DNA of 64,000 nt from Streptomyces sp. NBC_00377. GTDB lineage: Bacteria; Actinomycetota; Actinomycetes; Streptomycetales; Streptomycetaceae. This document shows, one piece after another, positions 39,469 to 46,906 of the stretch. The translations under genes were made by a program, and so were the position numbers. The number at the start of each line of letters is the position of its first letter. Positions within the stretch are counted from its first letter, which is position 1. The DNA lies in NCBI RefSeq assembly GCF_036075115.1, contig NZ_CP107958.1, forward strand, positions 4,340,001-4,404,000, given 5' to 3'. The notes below the pieces were generated by a model. It was not told the origin of the DNA. It saw nothing but the letters and a program-made list of their open reading frames with translations, and ran no database searches.

Positions 39469-40669
39469 GCCCCTCCAGCCCCCGGATCACGAAGTTCGGC
39501 TTGCGCCGGGGCTCCGCCGCCAGGGCCAGGGTGGGAGCCCGTTCCAACAGTGCCGTCATGGAGGCGGCCAGCTCGATACGGGCCAGCGGGGCGCCGATGC
39601 AGTAGTGGATGCCCGCGCTGAAGGAGATGTGCGGGTTCTCGGCGCGGGTGAGGTCGAGCCGGTCCGGGTCGGCGAAGACGGCCGGATCGTGGTTCGCCGC
39701 CCCGAACAGCATCGCGATCTCGGCACCCCGGGGGATCACGGTCCCGTCGATCTCGATCTCGTCGAGCACCCACCGCTCGAAAAGCTGGAGCGGGGTGTCG
39801 TAGCGCATCAGCTCCTCGACGGCGGAAGGGACGAGCGAGTGGTCGGCGCGCAGGGCGGCCAGCTGCTCCGGGTTCCGGAACAGCGCCCACCAACCGTTGA
39901 CGGTGGCGTTCACGGTCGCCTCGTGCCCCGCGTTGAGCAGCAGCACGGCGGTCGAGATCATCTCCTGCTCGGTGAGCCGGTCACCCTCGTCGTGCGCCGC
40001 GATGAGACCGGAGATGAGATCGTCGCCGGGCTCCTCGCGCCGGGCGGCGATGAGCTCCTTCAGATACTCGGAGAACTCGACGGAGGCCCGCACGGCGCGC
40101 GTCGCCGTCTCCTTCGACGGGCTGAGCTCGTACATCCCGCAGATGTCCGCCGACCAGGGCCGCAGCGGCCCCCGGTCCGGCTCCGGGATGCCGAGCATCT
40201 CCGCGATCACGGCGACGGGCAGCGGTTCGGCGACATCGCTCAGCAGATCGCCGCCGCCCGACTCCACCAGCCGGTCCACCAGCTCCCCGGCCAGCTGCCG
40301 CACATACGGCTTGAGCCGCTCCACCGTGCGCGGGGTGAACGCCTTCGACACCAGCCGCCGGATCCGGGTGTGGTCGGGCGGCTCCAGGTCGAGCATCCCG
40401 TGATCGTTGAGCGTGTGGAAGGGCTCCTGCTCGGCCGGAGGCGCCGTCCGCCCGAAGTCCTCGTGCGTGAACCGGTGCTGATACGTCCGCCCGAGCCGCC
40501 GCTCCCGCAGCAGCGCCGAGACATCCGCGTGCCGCGGCACCAGCCACTGGTCGGTCGGCTCGTAGTAGATCACCCGCCCCCGCTCCCGCAGCTCGGCGTA
40601 CGCCGGGTAAGGGTCCGACACGAACGCGGGATCCCAGGGATCGAAGGAGAGAACGTCAACTGCTGCCAT
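39452..40669 (-). CDS. Cytochrome P450, CYP107-like
   Basis: A 405-residue soluble P450. The I-helix is LLLNAGHEATVN, the K-helix ExxR is EELMR, and the haem-binding loop is FSAGIHYCIGAPLARIE with the cysteine ligand. DLEPPDHTRIRRLVSKAFTP is the usual bacterial C-helix region. It resembles CYP107 enzymes, which hydroxylate macrolides, steroids and other lipophiles. No ferredoxin or biosynthetic genes are adjacent, so the substrate is unknown. No clear ribosome site precedes the ATG. Confidence 0.93.
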   Translation of the reverse strand: MAAVDVLSFDPWDPAFVSDPYPAYAELRERGRVIYYEPTDQWLVPRHADVSALLRERRLGRTYQHRFTHEDFGRTAPPAEQEPFHTLNDHGMLDLEPPDHTRIRRLVSKAFTPRTVERLKPYVRQLAGELVDRLVESGGGDLLSDVAEPLPVAVIAEMLGIPEPDRGPLRPWSADICGMYELSPSKETATRAVRASVEFSEYLKELIAARREEPGDDLISGLIAAHDEGDRLTEQEMISTAVLLLNAGHEATVNATVNGWWALFRNPEQLAALRADHSLVPSAVEELMRYDTPLQLFERWVLDEIEIDGTVIPRGAEIAMLFGAANHDPAVFADPDRLDLTRAENPHISFSAGIHYCIGAPLARIELAASMTALLERAPTLALAAEPRRKPNFVIRGLEGLSVTL

Positions 40670-41156
40670 GACCGGACGCTAGCCGGTGAACGGACGCCTG
40701 ACCAGGGGGGTCTTTACAGGGCACGGGTCCGGAAGGTGGGGAGCGCCCGGCACAAGGGGAGGGTCCGGCACGTGGGCAGGGTCCGGCACGTGGGCAGGGT
40801 CCGGCACGTGGGCAGGGTCCGGCACGTGGGCAGGGTCCGGCACGTGGGCAGGGTCCGGCACGTGGGGAGCGCCCGGCGCGGCGGGGGGGGGCGGGGCCGT
40901 GGCGGCGGTCACCGTGTTCCGCACCGCCCCGCACCACTCTGCCCCGCACCGCCCTGCCCCGCACCGCCCGCCGGGTAGGGGTACGGCCCGCCCTAAGGGC
41001 TGTCCCCTAATCCCTGGCGGGCGCGCGACGACAGCTACGGCACCTCGCCGCGTTGTCGGAACGCCCGAATACATCCGGTATGCGGACGTGCCTCCGCCTT
41101 GCGATGCACCGCATCTGACGCCGCGCACTGATCCACCAGGGATTACGGGACAGCCC
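40670..41156. other. Repeat-rich intergenic region between P450 and response regulator
   Basis: This 487-bp stretch holds an 18-bp tandem repeat array (40751-40876), GC-rich dodecamer-like repeats (gccccgcaccgc variants, 40918-40970) and a MITE-like element (40993-41160). Open frames across it on both strands are products of the repeats and I do not accept them as genes. Confidence 0.7.
40751..40876. repeat. 18-bp tandem repeat array
   Basis: The unit cacgtgggcagggtccgg is repeated five times exactly (40769-40858) with one degenerate copy on each side. Each unit contains the palindrome CACGTG. There are no spacers, so it is not a CRISPR. It lies upstream of the P450 gene and might influence its transcription. 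Confidence 0.9.
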
Positions 41157-41160
41157 TTAG
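40993..41160. mobile_element. MITE-like element with 25-bp terminal inverted repeats
   Basis: The left end ctaagggctgtcccctaatc (40993-41012, continuing ccctgg to 41017) and the right end (41136-41160, finishing gggacagcccttag) are inverted copies with 24 of 25 bases matching. The 168-bp element has no coding capacity and can fold into a long hairpin. Very similar 'gggctgtccc...' ends recur in many Streptomyces genomes (from memory). The right end supplies the TAA stop of the response regulator at 41157. Confidence 0.8.
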
Positions 41161-41822
41161 CCCGGTGTCACCAATCTCGCCTCGTAGGCGAACACCGCCG
41201 CCTGGGTGCGGTCCCGCAGGCCCAGCTTGACCAGGATCCGGCTCACGTGGGTCTTGATGGTCGACTCGGCCACCACCAGCCGGCCGGCTATCTCCAGGTT
41301 CGACAGGCCCTGCGCGATCAGGACGAGTACCTCCGTCTCCCGCTCGGTCAGGTCGCCGTAGGCCGCCTGCGCCGTCAGGGACAGCCGCGGGGTGTCGGAC
41401 AGCTTCGAGAACTCCGTGATCAGGCGCTTGGTGACGGACGGGGCCAGCAGGGCCTCGCCCGCCGCCACCACCCGGACCCCGTCGGCCAGCTGGCGTGCCG
41501 ACGCGTCCTTCAGCAGGAAGCCCGAGGCGCCCGCGCGCAGTGCCTGGTAGACGTACTCGTCCAGGTCGAACGTCGTCAGCACCAGGACCTTCGCCGCGCC
41601 GTCCGCCGCCACGATCTCCCGCGTCGCCTCGATGCCGTTCAGTTCGGGCATGCGGATGTCCATGAGCACCACGTCCGGCGTCAGTTCACGGACCCGGTCG
41701 ACCGCCTCCCGGCCGTTGACCGCCTCGCCCACGACCTCGATGTCCGGCATCGCGTTCAGCAGGACCGAGAATCCCTCGCGCACCATCATCTGGTCGTCGG
41801 CGATCAGCACTCGAATCGTCAT
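41157..41822 (-). CDS. NarL/LuxR-family response regulator, copy 1
   Basis: A 221-residue regulator: receiver MTIRVLIADDQMMVREGF with phospho-acceptor Asp55 (VVLMDIRMPELNG) and the conserved Lys in GFLLKDAS. The LuxR helix-turn-helix is LTERETEVLVLIAQGLSNLE and IKTHVSRILVKLGL. The TAA stop lies inside the MITE-like element, so the last residues (RLVTPG) differ from the paralogue (GLVRPAGY). It starts within the histidine kinase stop (ATGA). Confidence 0.95.
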   Translation of the reverse strand: MTIRVLIADDQMMVREGFSVLLNAMPDIEVVGEAVNGREAVDRVRELTPDVVLMDIRMPELNGIEATREIVAADGAAKVLVLTTFDLDEYVYQALRAGASGFLLKDASARQLADGVRVVAAGEALLAPSVTKRLITEFSKLSDTPRLSLTAQAAYGDLTERETEVLVLIAQGLSNLEIAGRLVVAESTIKTHVSRILVKLGLRDRTQAAVFAYEARLVTPG

Positions 41823-43189
41823 CTTCCACTCTCACTCGCGGCGCGGCCGGCGGGCACCGGCAGGAACACGGTCACCTCGTAGCCGCCCGCAGGCGTCGGC
41901 TCCGCCGTCATCTCGCCGTTCAGCATGCTCACCCTCTCCCGCATCCCCGTGATGCCGTGGCCGGCGCCGGGAGAGGGCTTGATCAGGGACGGGTTCGGCG
42001 GTGCGCCGTTGACTATCCGTAGCCCGAGGCCGCCCAGCACATAGCCGATCTCCACGTCGGCGCTCGCGCCGGGAGCGTGCCGCAGTGTGTTGCTCAGGGC
42101 CTCCTGGACTATCCGGTACGCCGACAGCTCCACGCCCTGCGGCAGCTCGCGCACCGCGCCGGTGACCGTCTTCTCCACGTCCAGGCCCGTGGCCCGCACG
42201 TTGGCGAGCAGCCCGTCCAGTTCGGCGAGCGTGGGCTGCGGGGCGTCGGGGACCTCGTAGTCCTCGGCGCGGACCACGCCCAGGACCCGGCGCAGCTCCG
42301 TGAGGGCCGCCACCGCGTTCTCCCGGATGGTGGCGAAGGCGTTCTCCAGCTCCGGCGGAGGGTTCTGCACCCGGTAGGGGGCGGCCTCCGCCTGGATGGC
42401 GACCACCGACATGTGGTGGGCGACGACGTCGTGCAGTTCGCGGGCGATCGTGGTGCGCTCCTCCAGCAGAGTGCGGCGGGAGCGCTCGTGCGCGGTCACC
42501 GTCTGCTGGGCCGTCACCTTCTCCTCGGCCTGCCGGCGGATGTGCCAGACGGTGACGGCGAGCAGGAGGATCGCGGAGAACACCAGCATGGGGGCGGTGT
42601 TCGTGTAGTAGTGGTCCCAGCTGAAGACGGTCTCGGCGATGAAGCCGTAGGCCGCTGTCAGCATCCACATCCACGCCGCCGTGCGCGGCCGGGTGCGTAT
42701 CGCCACGACCGTCAGGACGACCAGGTGGGCGGTGAAGCTGCCCGGCAGCCAGGGCCACTCGCCGTAGGTCGTGCCGACGACGGCGACGACCGTGGTCGCC
42801 GCGAGCGACAGCCAGAACGCGCCGACCGGCCGTACCAGCGTCAGCAGCACCGGGACCAGCGCGAGCAGGCCCGTCAGCAGACCCAGACCGCCGCCCTGGT
42901 CGTCCACCCAGGCGATCAGCATCGCCAGGCCGCCGGCCGCCCCGACCAGCGCGTGCCGGGACCAGGTCGCGTACTCCCGCCTTCGGCCCTTCAGGCCGCG
43001 CAGGAGGCGCCCGCTGGGCTCCCTGCGGGGCAGCGGGCGGTAGGCGAAGGCATCGTGGAAGAGGTCCTCCCGCAAGCCGCGCAGGGCGTCCACGGCCGCC
43101 CGGAACTCCGGGCTGCGCGGCCGGTAGGCCTCGTAGGAGTCGTCCGGGTCGTCCGGGCGCGTGGGGTGCGTCTGCGTCGTGTCGGTCAC
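41819..43189 (-). CDS. Sensor histidine kinase of the HisKA_3 type, copy 1
   Basis: A 456-residue kinase with GTG start 43189. An N-terminal cytoplasmic part (DSYEAYRPRSPEFRAAVDAL) precedes about six membrane helices. The dimerisation/phospho-acceptor motif is TIARELHDVVAHHMSVVAI and the ATPase has GAGHGITGMRERV. It is paired by an ATGA overlap with its regulator, and a paralogous pair is immediately upstream. NarL-type kinases with little extracytoplasmic sequence usually sense the membrane itself, as LiaS-type proteins do (inference). Confidence 0.93.
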   Translation of the reverse strand: MTDTTQTHPTRPDDPDDSYEAYRPRSPEFRAAVDALRGLREDLFHDAFAYRPLPRREPSGRLLRGLKGRRREYATWSRHALVGAAGGLAMLIAWVDDQGGGLGLLTGLLALVPVLLTLVRPVGAFWLSLAATTVVAVVGTTYGEWPWLPGSFTAHLVVLTVVAIRTRPRTAAWMWMLTAAYGFIAETVFSWDHYYTNTAPMLVFSAILLLAVTVWHIRRQAEEKVTAQQTVTAHERSRRTLLEERTTIARELHDVVAHHMSVVAIQAEAAPYRVQNPPPELENAFATIRENAVAALTELRRVLGVVRAEDYEVPDAPQPTLAELDGLLANVRATGLDVEKTVTGAVRELPQGVELSAYRIVQEALSNTLRHAPGASADVEIGYVLGGLGLRIVNGAPPNPSLIKPSPGAGHGITGMRERVSMLNGEMTAEPTPAGGYEVTVFLPVPAGRAASESGR

Positions 43190-43232
43190 GTTCAGAACGG
43201 TAGGCGGAGGAAGGGGCCCCGGTCGTCACCAG

Positions 43233-43272
43233 TGAGAGGGGTTCCGGTGGCTCCCTCTCAAGTACTACGGGT
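43233..43272. promoter_or_regulatory. Inverted repeat plus GTACTACGG motif ahead of the copy 1 kinase
   Basis: tgagaggg (43233-43240) and ccctctca (43253-43260) are exact inverted copies 12 bp apart. The motif agtactacgggt follows directly (43261-43272). They lie 44-83 bp upstream of the kinase start. The second motif recurs elsewhere in the window. Confidence 0.45.
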
Positions 43273-43312
43273 CGGCCGGGGCGCGACGGGGCCGCCGCCG
43301 GGGAGCCGCCGC

Positions 43313-43990
43313 TCAGTACCCCGCGGGTCTCACCAGCCCCGACTCGTAGGCGAACACCGCCGCCTGGGTGCGGTCCCGCAGGCCCAGTTTCACCAGGATG
43401 CGGCCCACGTGTGTCTTCACGGTCTGCTCGGCGACGAAGAGATGGTCGGCGATCTCCGCGTTGGACAACCCCTGCGCGATCAGGGTGAGCACCTCCGTCT
43501 CGCGCTCGGTGAGGTCCCCGACGCGCTCCTTCAGCGGGGCTCTGGGCCTGCCGTCGAGGCGGGAGAACTCGGCGATCAGCTTGCGGGTGATGACGGGGGC
43601 GAGCAGGGCGTCGCCGGCCGCCACCACGCGGACCGCCTCGGCGAGCTGGTCCGCGGACGCGTCCTTGAGCAGGAACCCCGACGCCCCGGCCCGCAGCGCG
43701 TCGTACACGTACTCGTCGAGATCGAAGGTGGTGAGCACCAGCACCTTGATATGGGGGTGTGTGAGGGTGATCCGGTGCGTGGCGTCGATGCCGCCGAGCT
43801 CGGGCATGCGGATGTCCATCAGGACGACGTCCGGATCGAGTTCGGCGACCTTCGCGACGGCGTCCAGACCGTGCACCGCCTGGCCGATCACCTCGATGCC
43901 GGGATGGGCGTTGAGCAGCACGGTGAAGCCCTGCCTGACCATCTGCTGGTCGTCGGCGATCAGTACGCGGATGGTGTCGGCGGTCGTCAT
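43313..43990 (-). CDS. NarL/LuxR-family response regulator, copy 2
   Basis: A 225-residue paralogue of the regulator at 41157. Asp59 lies in VVLMDIRMPELGG, and LTERETEVLTLIAQGLSNAE with VKTHVGRILVKLGLRDRTQ forms the DNA-binding domain. It is about 70% similar to copy 1 by eye. It overlaps its kinase (ATGA). Confidence 0.95.
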   Translation of the reverse strand: MTTADTIRVLIADDQQMVRQGFTVLLNAHPGIEVIGQAVHGLDAVAKVAELDPDVVLMDIRMPELGGIDATHRITLTHPHIKVLVLTTFDLDEYVYDALRAGASGFLLKDASADQLAEAVRVVAAGDALLAPVITRKLIAEFSRLDGRPRAPLKERVGDLTERETEVLTLIAQGLSNAEIADHLFVAEQTVKTHVGRILVKLGLRDRTQAAVFAYESGLVRPAGY

Positions 43991-45432
43991 CGGTTTCCCT
44001 CTGCTGTCGGGGGCCGGGGGCGCCGGCCGGGCATGTGGTCCGGATCGTCCGGGAAGACGAGTTCGAGGCCGTCGAGGGTGCCCGGATCGGCGCCGTGGTC
44101 CCGGTCGCCGGAGGTGTCCGAGCCGTCGCGGGGGATCGCCGCGCCGTCCCTCGGAAGGAACGCCGACACCGCGAAACCGCCGTGCAGGGTCGGGTACGCG
44201 CTGACATGGCCGCCCAGCATCACCGCCCGCTCACGCATCCCGAGCAACCCGTGCCCCGCACCGGGGGACGACGGCACGGGCCTGCGCGGGCGGGAGTTGG
44301 TGACCTCCAGGTGCAGACCCCGCTCGTGGTGGGCGACCTCCACCCGCACCTGGGAACCCGGAGCGTGCCGCAGGGCGTTGCTGAGGGCCTCCTGCACTAT
44401 CCGGTACGCCGACAGCTGCACGCCCGGCGGATACGCCGGCGCCTCGCCCTCGACCTCGGCCACCACGTCCAGTCCCGCGGCGCGGGTGTTCTCCAGGAGG
44501 GCGTCGAGCCGGTCCAGCGTGGGCTGCGGCGTGTCCGGGGCGGCTCCGGCGCCGGCCGCGCCGAGGCCGTAGGGGTCCTCGGGGTTCTCCGAGCGCAGCA
44601 CCCCGAGCACCCGGCGCAGTTCGGCGAGCGCCTCCACGGCGTTCTGCCGGATCCCGGCGAGGTTCTCCTTCAGCTCCTCGGACGGGTTCTCCACCAGGTA
44701 CGGGGCGACCTGGGCCTGGATGGAGATCACCGACATGTGATGGGCCACGACGTCGTGCAGTTCGCGCGCGATCCGGTTGCGCTCCTCGAGGACGGTGCGG
44801 CGGGCACGCTCCTCCGCGGTGAGCGTCTCCTGCTCGACGAGCCGGGTGCGGGCCTCCCGGCGGCCGCGCAGGGCGCTGCCGAGGAGCACCACGACCGCGA
44901 ACACGATCACCGCCGCCGGACCGGACGGCGCGTAGTGGGCAGCGCCGATGAGCCCTTCCACGACGTAGGTGATCAGCGCGGTCATGCCCAGAGCCGCGAC
45001 GGACGCGCGGGTGGGCAGGCGCAGCGACAACAGGAGCAGCACCATGGCGTGGGCGATCAGACCGGGCACGCCCCACGGCCAGGAGGCGTCGGGCTCGGCC
45101 TGGCCCGCCAGCAGTGGGGAACGGGCGCCGAGGGCCACGACCACCGTGACCGTCATCGAAAGCCACCACGCGGGGACCGGCCGCCACAGGGCCAGCACCA
45201 CGGCCGCGCCCTGCGCGGTGGCGCAGAACAGACCGTAGTTCGCGCCCTGCCGGTACTCGTCGGTGATCTGCGCCGCGCCCGCCAGGGCGACACCGACGCC
45301 GACCAGGATCACATGCCAGTGCGGCAGGCGGCGCAGCAGCACGAACGGCGGCAACGGCGCCAACCGGGTCGTCCACAGATCGTCCCGCAGCGCCCGCAGA
45401 CCCCTGGCCAGCCACTCCCCCATGCCGTTCAT
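43987..45432 (-). CDS. Sensor histidine kinase of the HisKA_3 type, copy 2
   Basis: A 481-residue kinase. The start is placed at ATG 45432 (MNGMGEWLARGL) because a TAGGGT box lies eight bases upstream, suggesting a leaderless transcript. About six helices are followed by RIARELHDVVAHHMSVISI and SPGAGHGLLGMRERA. A C-terminal acidic, Pro-rich tail (after residue 430) is absent from copy 1. It lies 11 bp downstream of the acyltransferase stop. Confidence 0.92.
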   Translation of the reverse strand: MNGMGEWLARGLRALRDDLWTTRLAPLPPFVLLRRLPHWHVILVGVGVALAGAAQITDEYRQGANYGLFCATAQGAAVVLALWRPVPAWWLSMTVTVVVALGARSPLLAGQAEPDASWPWGVPGLIAHAMVLLLLSLRLPTRASVAALGMTALITYVVEGLIGAAHYAPSGPAAVIVFAVVVLLGSALRGRREARTRLVEQETLTAEERARRTVLEERNRIARELHDVVAHHMSVISIQAQVAPYLVENPSEELKENLAGIRQNAVEALAELRRVLGVLRSENPEDPYGLGAAGAGAAPDTPQPTLDRLDALLENTRAAGLDVVAEVEGEAPAYPPGVQLSAYRIVQEALSNALRHAPGSQVRVEVAHHERGLHLEVTNSRPRRPVPSSPGAGHGLLGMRERAVMLGGHVSAYPTLHGGFAVSAFLPRDGAAIPRDGSDTSGDRDHGADPGTLDGLELVFPDDPDHMPGRRPRPPTAEGNR

Positions 45433-45439
45433 CCGCACC

Positions 45440-45445
45440 ACCCTA
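45440..45445 (-). promoter_or_regulatory. -10 box for the copy 2 kinase, leaderless start
   Basis: TAGGGT on the minus strand ends eight bases before ATG 45432, with no ribosome site between. The -35 region is weak. Confidence 0.4.
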
Positions 45446-46906
45446 GACACGCCGCGTCCCCCGCGACCCCGGTGTTTTCCGGAGGTGTCCGACGCGCACC
45501 ACGCGGGACCCGCCCCGCTCCCTCGGCGCACGCCGCCCTCCCCCGCTCTCGTAGCCGTGGAACGCCGCCCGGCAGACGCCCAGCACGAGGGCGAAGACCG
45601 GCAGCCACAGCAGCCGGGCCGCCGCCCAGCCCAGCCCGTCGGGGACGGTGTGCAGGCCGGGCAGACGGCCCGCGAACAGGCCCGTCGCGGTGGTCGCCAT
45701 CATGGCCGTCTGGTGCCAGAGGAACACCGTCATGGCCGACAGGTTGACCAGCGCCACCCCCGCCCAGACGAGGGGCCCGCGCATCACCCGGCGCAGCCGG
45801 TCCCGCAGCAGCAGTGCCGCTCCGCACTGGGCGAGCCCGAAGGTGACGGCGGCCAGCGTCGGCGGGTTGAGGTTGGAGACCGCCGCGCCCGGCACGCCCA
45901 CCATCGAAGCCGGGTAGCCGGCCCAGCCGACGAGCAGCGCGGTCGCCGCCACCCCGCCGACCAGGAGGAGCCGGCCCGCGCGGGGCCGCTCCAGCTCGCC
46001 CCTGGTCCAGGCCGCGCCCAGGGTGTACGGCACCAGCCAGCCCGCCATCACGTTCACCCAGCCCAGCCAGGACGGGCCGCCCAGGCCGAAGCGCACCAGG
46101 TCCACATGGAGGACGACGGCCAGCGGCCACAGCGGGTTGAGCCGCGCCAGCAGCGGGGTCGCGGTCGTCAGCACGGCGAAGACCAGCAGGAACCACAGGG
46201 GGGACAACGCCAGTTTGACCACGGTGTGCACGGTGACGAAGGACGCGCCGCCGAGCAGGAGACCGGCCGCGGCCACCGTCCACACCCCCAGCAGGGCGGC
46301 CACCGGGACGAACAGCCGTGTCAGCCTGGTGCTCAGCCAGGCGCCGTAGGTCCCGCCCCGTGCGCGGGCCGAGGCCAGGCTGCGGGTGGCCACATGACCG
46401 CCCACCATGAAGAACACCGCGAGGGTCTGGAACATCCAGGACACCGGCGCCAGCCAGGGCATGGGCCCCAGCGGGCTGGCGGCCCGCAGTGTGGCGCCGT
46501 CGGCGACGAGCGCCGTCACCAGCCAGTGGCCGAGGACGACACCGAGGATCGCCAGGGCGCGCAGGGCGTCCACGGCCCGGTCGCGCCGTGGGGGCGTGGC
46601 GGCGTCGATCCGGGTGGCGGCCCGCCGGATGCCGAACAGCATCCGCCGCAGCGCTCCGCGCTCCGCCGCCCCACGCGCGGGTGATTCGTGCACTGGTGAT
46701 CCGTGCACTGGTGCTTCGTGTGCGGGTGACCCGCACGCCCGTGACTCGTGCGCCGCTGACCCGTGCGCCCGTGTCCCATGTCCGCGAGCCCGTTCCTGTT
46801 CCCGCCCCTCGGGCGCCCCCGCCCGAGGCACTCCCGCGTCACGGACCTGCGGCTCACGCGCCTCCGTCTCACGCTCTCGTGTCTCACGCTCCCGTGTCTC
46901 ACGCAC
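45443..46906 (-). CDS. Acyltransferase-3-family membrane protein
   Basis: A 487-residue protein. The start is GTG 46906 with a strong ggaggt ribosome site five bases upstream; it overlaps the preceding hydrolase gene by eight bases. The first 120 residues are low-complexity (RETRERETRERET, then His/Ala/Gly/Ser-rich), encoded by short DNA repeats. The acyltransferase domain starts RRDRAVDALRALAILGVVLG HWL-like, with about ten helices (SWMFQTLAVFFMVGG, MTVFLWHQTAMM). Family members O-acylate sugars or antibiotics on the cell surface. The target is unknown. Confidence 0.85.
   Translation of the reverse strand: MRETRERETRERETEAREPQVRDAGVPRAGAPEGREQERARGHGTRAHGSAAHESRACGSPAHEAPVHGSPVHESPARGAAERGALRRMLFGIRRAATRIDAATPPRRDRAVDALRALAILGVVLGHWLVTALVADGATLRAASPLGPMPWLAPVSWMFQTLAVFFMVGGHVATRSLASARARGGTYGAWLSTRLTRLFVPVAALLGVWTVAAAGLLLGGASFVTVHTVVKLALSPLWFLLVFAVLTTATPLLARLNPLWPLAVVLHVDLVRFGLGGPSWLGWVNVMAGWLVPYTLGAAWTRGELERPRAGRLLLVGGVAATALLVGWAGYPASMVGVPGAAVSNLNPPTLAAVTFGLAQCGAALLLRDRLRRVMRGPLVWAGVALVNLSAMTVFLWHQTAMMATTATGLFAGRLPGLHTVPDGLGWAAARLLWLPVFALVLGVCRAAFHGYESGGGRRAPRERGGSRVVRVGHLRKTPGSRGTRRV
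46681..46905. repeat. Short direct repeats coding the acyltransferase N-terminus
   Basis: Two repeat zones are visible: variants of gtgattcgtgcactg about every 15 bp at 46681-46775, and copies of tctcacgctcccgtg at 46867-46905. They encode His/Ser/Ala-rich and RETRE-rich stretches. Confidence 0.6.

Follow-up and report, generated by a model that had tools for sequence, protein, structure and literature searches.

A stop-preserving MITE insertion at a response regulator gene of Streptomyces sp. NBC_00377, and a hairpin core found beneath many different ends

The locus and its element

The window analysed here is a stretch of 64,000 nucleotides of Streptomyces sp. NBC_00377 (contig NZ_CP107958.1, positions 4,340,001 to 4,404,000), in which the gene of a NarL-type response regulator ends at the edge of a short palindromic MITE. 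The features of the locus, in window coordinates and with the evidence on which each assignment rests, are:

40993-41160, no strand: MITE with its C...G target context (inverted arms, copies in the same genome, exact end repeats)
40996-41157, no strand: element proper without the duplicated TA (alignment of copies and flanks)
40994-40995, no strand: left copy of the duplicated TA (copies aligned with flanks)
41158-41159, no strand: right copy of the duplicated TA, bases 1-2 of the regulator stop (aligned copies and orthologues)
40996-41020, plus strand: left terminal repeat, beginning AGGGCTGTCCC (arms and exact match)
41133-41157, minus strand: right terminal repeat (arms and exact match)
41039-41109, minus strand: conserved hairpin core, with the minus strand as S strand, present also under other end types (alignment of A- and B-type copies, comparison across end types)
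41157-41159, minus strand: regulator stop codon TAA, with TA derived from the target and A from the element, the native stop probably TAG (ORF list and orthologues)
41157-41822, minus strand: NarL-type response regulator, Response_reg and GerE (ORF list and domain search)
41819-43189, minus strand: adjoining histidine kinase, HisKA_3 and HATPase_c, likely partner of the regulator (ORF list and domain search)

Counted from TA to TA the MITE spans 166 bp (40994-41159), or 162 bp once the TA duplication is set apart. Its arms (40988-41020 and 41133-41165) are complementary at 88% over 33 nt, and AGGGCTGTCCC occurs exactly at 40996-41006 on the plus strand and at 41147-41157 on the minus strand. 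The element is short and non-autonomous: it carries no transposase gene, and the reading frames of at least 90 aa that cross it extend far past it. Four more copies with 98-99% identity to it lie elsewhere in the genome, which marks it as a dispersed repeat rather than a palindrome that arose by chance; the five near-identical copies (98-100% identity) all have CTAAGGGCTGTCC at both ends. The BLAST search of the genome with the MITE gave 31 matches, some of them reverse-strand rows of one copy, and those beyond the five near-full-length ones are partial or belong to relatives with different ends. The sequence-only reading, which had described a MITE-like element with these ends and the stop codon at this position and had proposed a search for further copies, is borne out in these points.

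Beyond this genome, the MITE has matches in 59 plasmid records, and its 15-base end motif is present in 61 of 150 genomes; among the matches listed, the named-genome loci with this end are nearly all from Streptomyces. The phage collection searched with the element gave no match. Filled and empty sites across species suggest that the element has been mobile. What lies at the locus is an ordinary MITE insertion, with a mechanism that preserves the stop and a family in which one core is combined with many ends.

Two further features were seen nearby. An 18-bp tandem repeat, GGGTCCGGCACGTGGGCA, occupies positions 40725-40868 between a P450 gene and the MITE, with about five exact units from 40761 and variants on both sides. 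On the minus strand, 41157-45531 holds two neighbouring regulator/kinase-like gene pairs, apparently a tandem duplication, and several other genomes, too, contain another matching regulator at a distance of about 2 kb.

The stop codon of the regulator

The regulator frame (41157-41822, minus strand) ends ...EARLVTPG, followed by a TAA which straddles the right edge of the MITE. The adjacent paralogue ends differently (GLVRPAGY), from which the sequence-only reading had concluded that the gene had probably lost its own 3' end to the element and had received its stop codon from it. The 3' part of the gene matched 146 of 150 genomes, and the best 30 loci, our own included, were compared. In all 29 orthologous loci the MITE end is absent from the 57 bases past the stop; the stop lies at the same codon in each of these 29, and the C-terminus is RLVTPG in 24 of them and RLVTPR, RLVTPK, RLVRPG or RLVVPG, at equal length, in the remaining five. 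The paralogue was thus a misleading standard of comparison, and displacement of the native 3' end with a shortened or altered C-terminus, suggested by the unlikeness to that paralogue, has next to no probability given the element-free orthologues that share both the TPG ending and the stop position. Judged by these orthologues, the regulator protein is unaltered by the insertion.

The bases of the stop do differ. The 29 orthologues use TGA (20) or TAG (9) and never TAA, and six of the nine TAG stops sit in CTAG. The two nearest orthologues (90% and 87% identity) read GGC TAG, so that a CTAG target coincides with their stop, and the native stop is therefore the most likely point of insertion here; judging from the stops of the relatives, the ancestral codon in this very strain was probably TAG. 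The element therefore contributes the final A of TAA, whereas T and A are duplicated target, so that the idea of a stop codon supplied by the MITE holds for one base in three. The target-site duplication sought by the sequence-only reading is this TA, within a CTAG target.

Two other copies in the same genome, L002 and L005, tell a similar story. Their counterparts in the relative G062 (91% and 89% identity) are free of the element, and in both the frame terminates at the corresponding codon within a CTAG, reading ACC TAG and AAC TAG, respectively. The other 22 of the 24 loci compared for the two copies end, as judged by eye, no more than about 6 residues from that position, and their stops are TGA, TAG or TAA.

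The CTAG target

The survey of exact ends in named genomes yielded at least 112 ends in at least 80 loci. The bases before the exact ends, among 112 listed, are CTA in 79, CTG in 13, CCA in 10 and others in 10. C and G lie directly outside TA in 81 of 85 paired ends among the matches listed, some of which were found by a C-initial pattern; for A-type sites picked regardless of the outer bases, C lies outside TA on both sides in 62 of 66 from named genomes and in 5 of 5 from our own. Since this holds in nearly all sites, the target is C^TA^G, with TA duplicated. TA is self-complementary, and a TA borne by the element is therefore indistinguishable from a duplicated one save by empty sites. Four A-type elements (L157, L160, L195, L205) speak against the plain model: they show symmetric CTGA...TCAG at both ends instead of CTAA...TTAG, which plain TA duplication does not explain.

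CTAG is strongly depleted in this genome. In a 400-kb sample (L279-L298) it was seen 82 times, against 249 expected from trinucleotides, whereas seven further palindromes of four bases with equal composition occur 890 to 2741 times each in this sample. Moreover, only 6 of 79 background CTAGs lie inside genes.

IS5-type elements with the same ends

Three 887-bp elements in species G010 have the ends of the MITE, with TA at their termini. One of them, L109, encodes a 256-aa DDE transposase which matches the Pfam families DDE_Tnp_1, HTH_Tnp_4 and DDE_Tnp_4 above cut-off; its best NCBIfam model is the IS5 family (E 5e-33), with a score of 114.8 that is below the cut-off of 140. A related transposase in G076 matches the same Pfam families, and its best NCBIfam model is likewise IS5-family. 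The 887-bp length is within about 0.8-1 kb, and the 2-bp TA duplication is as in the IS5/IS427 group, for which excerpts of PMC3281130 describe elements of 832-865 bp with 2-bp repeats, except for a 4-bp repeat in one of 842 bp. An excerpt of PMC9241763 reports CTAG repeats for an IS5-type element of Mycobacterium shottsii. The 887-bp IS resembles IS427-like members of the IS5 family in having a DDE transposase, though one that scores below the family cut-off, and a TA duplication, and it shares its ends with the MITE, whereas the MITE has only about 18 exact terminal bp in common with it and an interior without match. Compared by BLAST with eight IS-like sequences, the MITE showed terminal matches of 18 bp exact, or up to 33 bp at lower identity, and a sole non-terminal match of 16 bp at chance level. 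The view of the MITE as an internally deleted IS is thus unsupported.

In the genome of strain NBC_00377 itself, no pair at IS distance was found among 18 matches to these ends (at most one mismatch); the genome holds one intact IS5-like transposase gene of 64% identity, whose element has other ends, CTAGAGGTTGTCCCGT. The end motifs of the B, L344 and C types were found in 2, 2 and 7 of 121 genomes, respectively, and a search for longer elements with these ends identified no IS for them; the C-type pairs examined are all short.

These data are consistent with a model in which an IS5-like transposase, acting in trans, would insert the non-autonomous palindromic element with its IS5-type ends into C^TA^G, the CTAG hit here being the regulator's native TAG stop. 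Duplication of TA, followed by the A with which the element starts, would turn TAG into TAA; any element starting with A or G after TA would always rebuild a stop (TAA or TAG). The target would also direct insertions to gene ends and spacers, because CTAG is rare and seldom lies inside genes in this genome. We consider it highly probable that the element entered C^TA^G at the native TAG stop by means of an IS5-like transposase and left the protein unchanged. The insertion was presumably near-neutral for the host, but may influence the 3' end of the mRNA.

Excess of insertions at stop codons

Insertion sites were classed as stop, inside gene or intergenic with a gene caller based on codon usage. 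Of 82 A-type sites, four with short flanks and four with another tetranucleotide were set aside, leaving 74 with a restored CTAG; insertions were merged only if their flanks were identical, and related sites are possibly counted twice in these numbers. Gene stops account for 32 of the 74, with 4 sites inside genes and 38 intergenic, compared with 16 stops, 14 inside genes and 52 intergenic among 82 background CTAGs of the same named loci (p = 0.0017 for stops against the rest, p = 0.007 for stops against intergenic). The excess is larger in our own genome, where 14 of 18 A- and B-type sites (one B site reads CTAC) are at stops; the background there, sampled in 20 segments of 20 kb each, has 10 stops among 79 CTAGs (p = 1e-7, or 3e-7 when the comparison is confined to intergenic CTAGs). 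A simpler rule based on ORFs and GC3 gave 35 of 82 A-type sites at stops versus 16 of 91 in the background, and 9 of 13 versus 7 of 79 for the B type; six of nine sites of a third end type are at stops. Of the 11 rows for IS-length elements with the same ends, among them a pair with a common left end, one is at a stop, which suggests, for a small number, that the excess belongs to the MITEs rather than to the IS-length elements.

The excess might merely reflect how common CTAG is at stops, where TAG follows C, with no further preference or selection. CTAG is indeed depleted and seldom found in genes, and 10 of 79 and 16 of 82 background CTAGs are stops; however, the elements exceed this background in both sets, and some of the excess stays when intergenic CTAGs alone are taken for comparison, which makes availability of the target improbable as the whole explanation. 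A preference for stops and selection against other insertions both fit the excess and cannot be separated by the counts. On the safest reading, we are dealing with a non-autonomous element that is moved by IS5-type enzymes and that selection tolerates, since the choice of target holds it away from genes and its initial base restores stop codons.

A hairpin core beneath many ends

The MITE folds far better than shuffled sequences (z -10.4 on the minus and -6.7 on the plus strand, with 0 of 200 shuffles as good on either strand), and the hairpin predicted on the sense strand of the regulator has -120.9 kcal/mol. In 43 aligned A- and B-type copies, interior stretches are near-invariant although the A and B ends differ. 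Orientation was set for 86 copies, with 8 of the 82 A-type and 1 of the 13 B-type copies left out, and in all 86 the S (minus) strand folds better than its complement by about 24 kcal/mol; the consensus energies are -103.9 for S and -55.2 for the complement. Among the pairs of the S structure that are altered in two or more A- and B-type sequences, G-U was found at 22 and A-C at 2, versus 10 and 19 among singletons (p = 2e-5 for shared against singleton changes, uncorrected for kinship); for the complement's own structure the corresponding numbers are 7 and 7 shared and 14 and 10 singletons. The shared changes therefore keep the pairing of the S strand, and the recent ones do not. Rfam gave no match in the window at gathering score; at E up to 1, six element loci matched only MIR898 (32.2 bits at a cut-off of 75, E 0.0025), which we take as chance similarity to a palindrome.

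The core is found well beyond the A and B types. With a query made from the core, matches at E up to 0.001 were obtained in 96 of 101 genomes, a number that is an upper bound because the query held a G+C-rich inserted hairpin and many matches were weak; a 16-base core motif (up to 2 mismatches) was found in 28 of the 30 best loci, one per genome. The inverted ends that flank these cores are of many different kinds, often with CTAG or CCAG still at their borders. End-type classes were read by eye and then measured. For 13 representatives picked by eye, identity of the ends has a mean of 0.47 (0.24-0.86, some being related), where shuffled ends give 0.35 with a 95th percentile of 0.48, and identity of the cores has a mean of 0.86 (0.64-1.00), raised by how they were found. 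All nine paired C-type elements that were examined, from several species, contain the core as well. In one species, G012, the C type has expanded greatly, to 77 exact ends, of which 39 are forward and 38 reverse.

In 26 cores chosen from 34 extracted, several of them A-type, changes on both sides occur at 14 of 32 pairs and 95% of cells are paired; none of 500 shuffles reaches any of five measures (kinship uncorrected), and the covariation signal is lost when partners are slid. Across end types the preference for G-U over A-C is not significant (shared 10 versus 4, singletons 3 versus 6, p = 0.10), being significant only in the set of A- and B-type copies.

On a bolder reading, the core would be a module, of either structured RNA or single-stranded DNA, that itself contributes to the spread of the element. 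We tentatively propose, as a possibility for which the odds are not favourable, an undescribed module of this kind in Streptomyces that wears the ends of several CTAG-targeting IS. If so, the core would be a parasite that swaps its transposase and keeps its own functional core, and the CTAG target together with the stop-rebuilding ends would let it settle in stops harmlessly.

A real possibility, though one to which we give somewhat less than an even chance, is that the conserved core is recognised as DNA, either as a protein site or as a single-stranded hairpin, and not as RNA. Single-stranded DNA, too, tolerates G-T pairs better than A-C, and this, like the random orientation of the elements to host genes described below, fits recognition as DNA; RNA and single-stranded DNA, however, are not told apart by the present data. 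In the A- and B-type copies G-U is favoured over A-C on one strand, which is not what one would predict for a purely double-stranded site; this argument from strand specificity is itself weakened by the comparison across end types.

Possible effects on the host

Genes run into the S strand and into its complement about equally (A type 17:15, 5 unset; B type 4:4, 1 unset), and host mRNA is therefore not an obvious place of selection; a role of the sense strand in host mRNA was accordingly rejected. A transcript through the MITE would carry a very stable predicted hairpin, and any effect on the regulator would be exerted via the mRNA 3' end. No intrinsic terminator (a G+C stem followed by a T-run) was found in 40600-41900, and a scan for promoters and terminators at the locus found none.

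It is conceivable, though rather doubtful, that the element is retained at gene ends because it benefits the host. It might serve as a transcription terminator, a role also suggested in the sequence-only reading, or its hairpin might shield the 3' end of the mRNA or lead to cleavage there, RNase III being one candidate enzyme. The stop excess beyond CTAG availability and the stability of the hairpin on the regulator's sense strand would agree with such a benefit, and there are precedents: according to excerpts of PMC10969869, Correia elements are processed by RNase III and ERIC elements affect 3' ends, and RNase III is treated in connection with NEMIS in an excerpt of PMC2229807. However, a T-run terminator is lacking in the interval scanned, genes enter both strands about equally despite the difference in folding energy, and survival of harmless insertions accounts for the excess equally well.

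Relation to known elements

The MITE described here illustrates a simple route to a harmless transposable element, namely to target a tetranucleotide that is rare in genes yet overlaps TAG stops, and to have a purine as its first base, which restores the stop in every case. MITEs are usually regarded as shrunken insertion sequences; in contrast, the interior of this one has no match to the insertion sequences that share its ends. The question this raises is why elements with different ends share one hairpin core that is kept by compensatory changes. Our literature search, which covered few subscription papers, found no paper on Streptomyces MITEs of this kind.

YPAL, also called RU-2, of Yersinia sits just after stop codons. 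In an excerpt of PMC2229807 it is described as a 168-bp palindromic element, similar in length to the MITE, and, unlike the MITE, as having no terminal TA and duplications of 3-26 bp. By their descriptions in excerpts of PMC2229807 and PMC10969869, Correia/NEMIS, ERIC and RUP elements are like the MITE in being shorter than 200 bp and in having inverted ends, terminal TA and stable hairpin transcripts. Unlike these, the MITE targets CTAG, restores a stop and belongs to a family with one core under many ends.

Elements of other sizes were also observed. L011, L013-L017, L024, L121-L124, L127 and L128 are versions of about 194-230 bp in which the core arms hold an additional hairpin, or two, each of about 30 nt, and L141, L157, L174 and L175 are elements of 38-59 bp that consist of little beyond the two ends. 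L157 sits between two converging reading frames, each of which stops at its edge.
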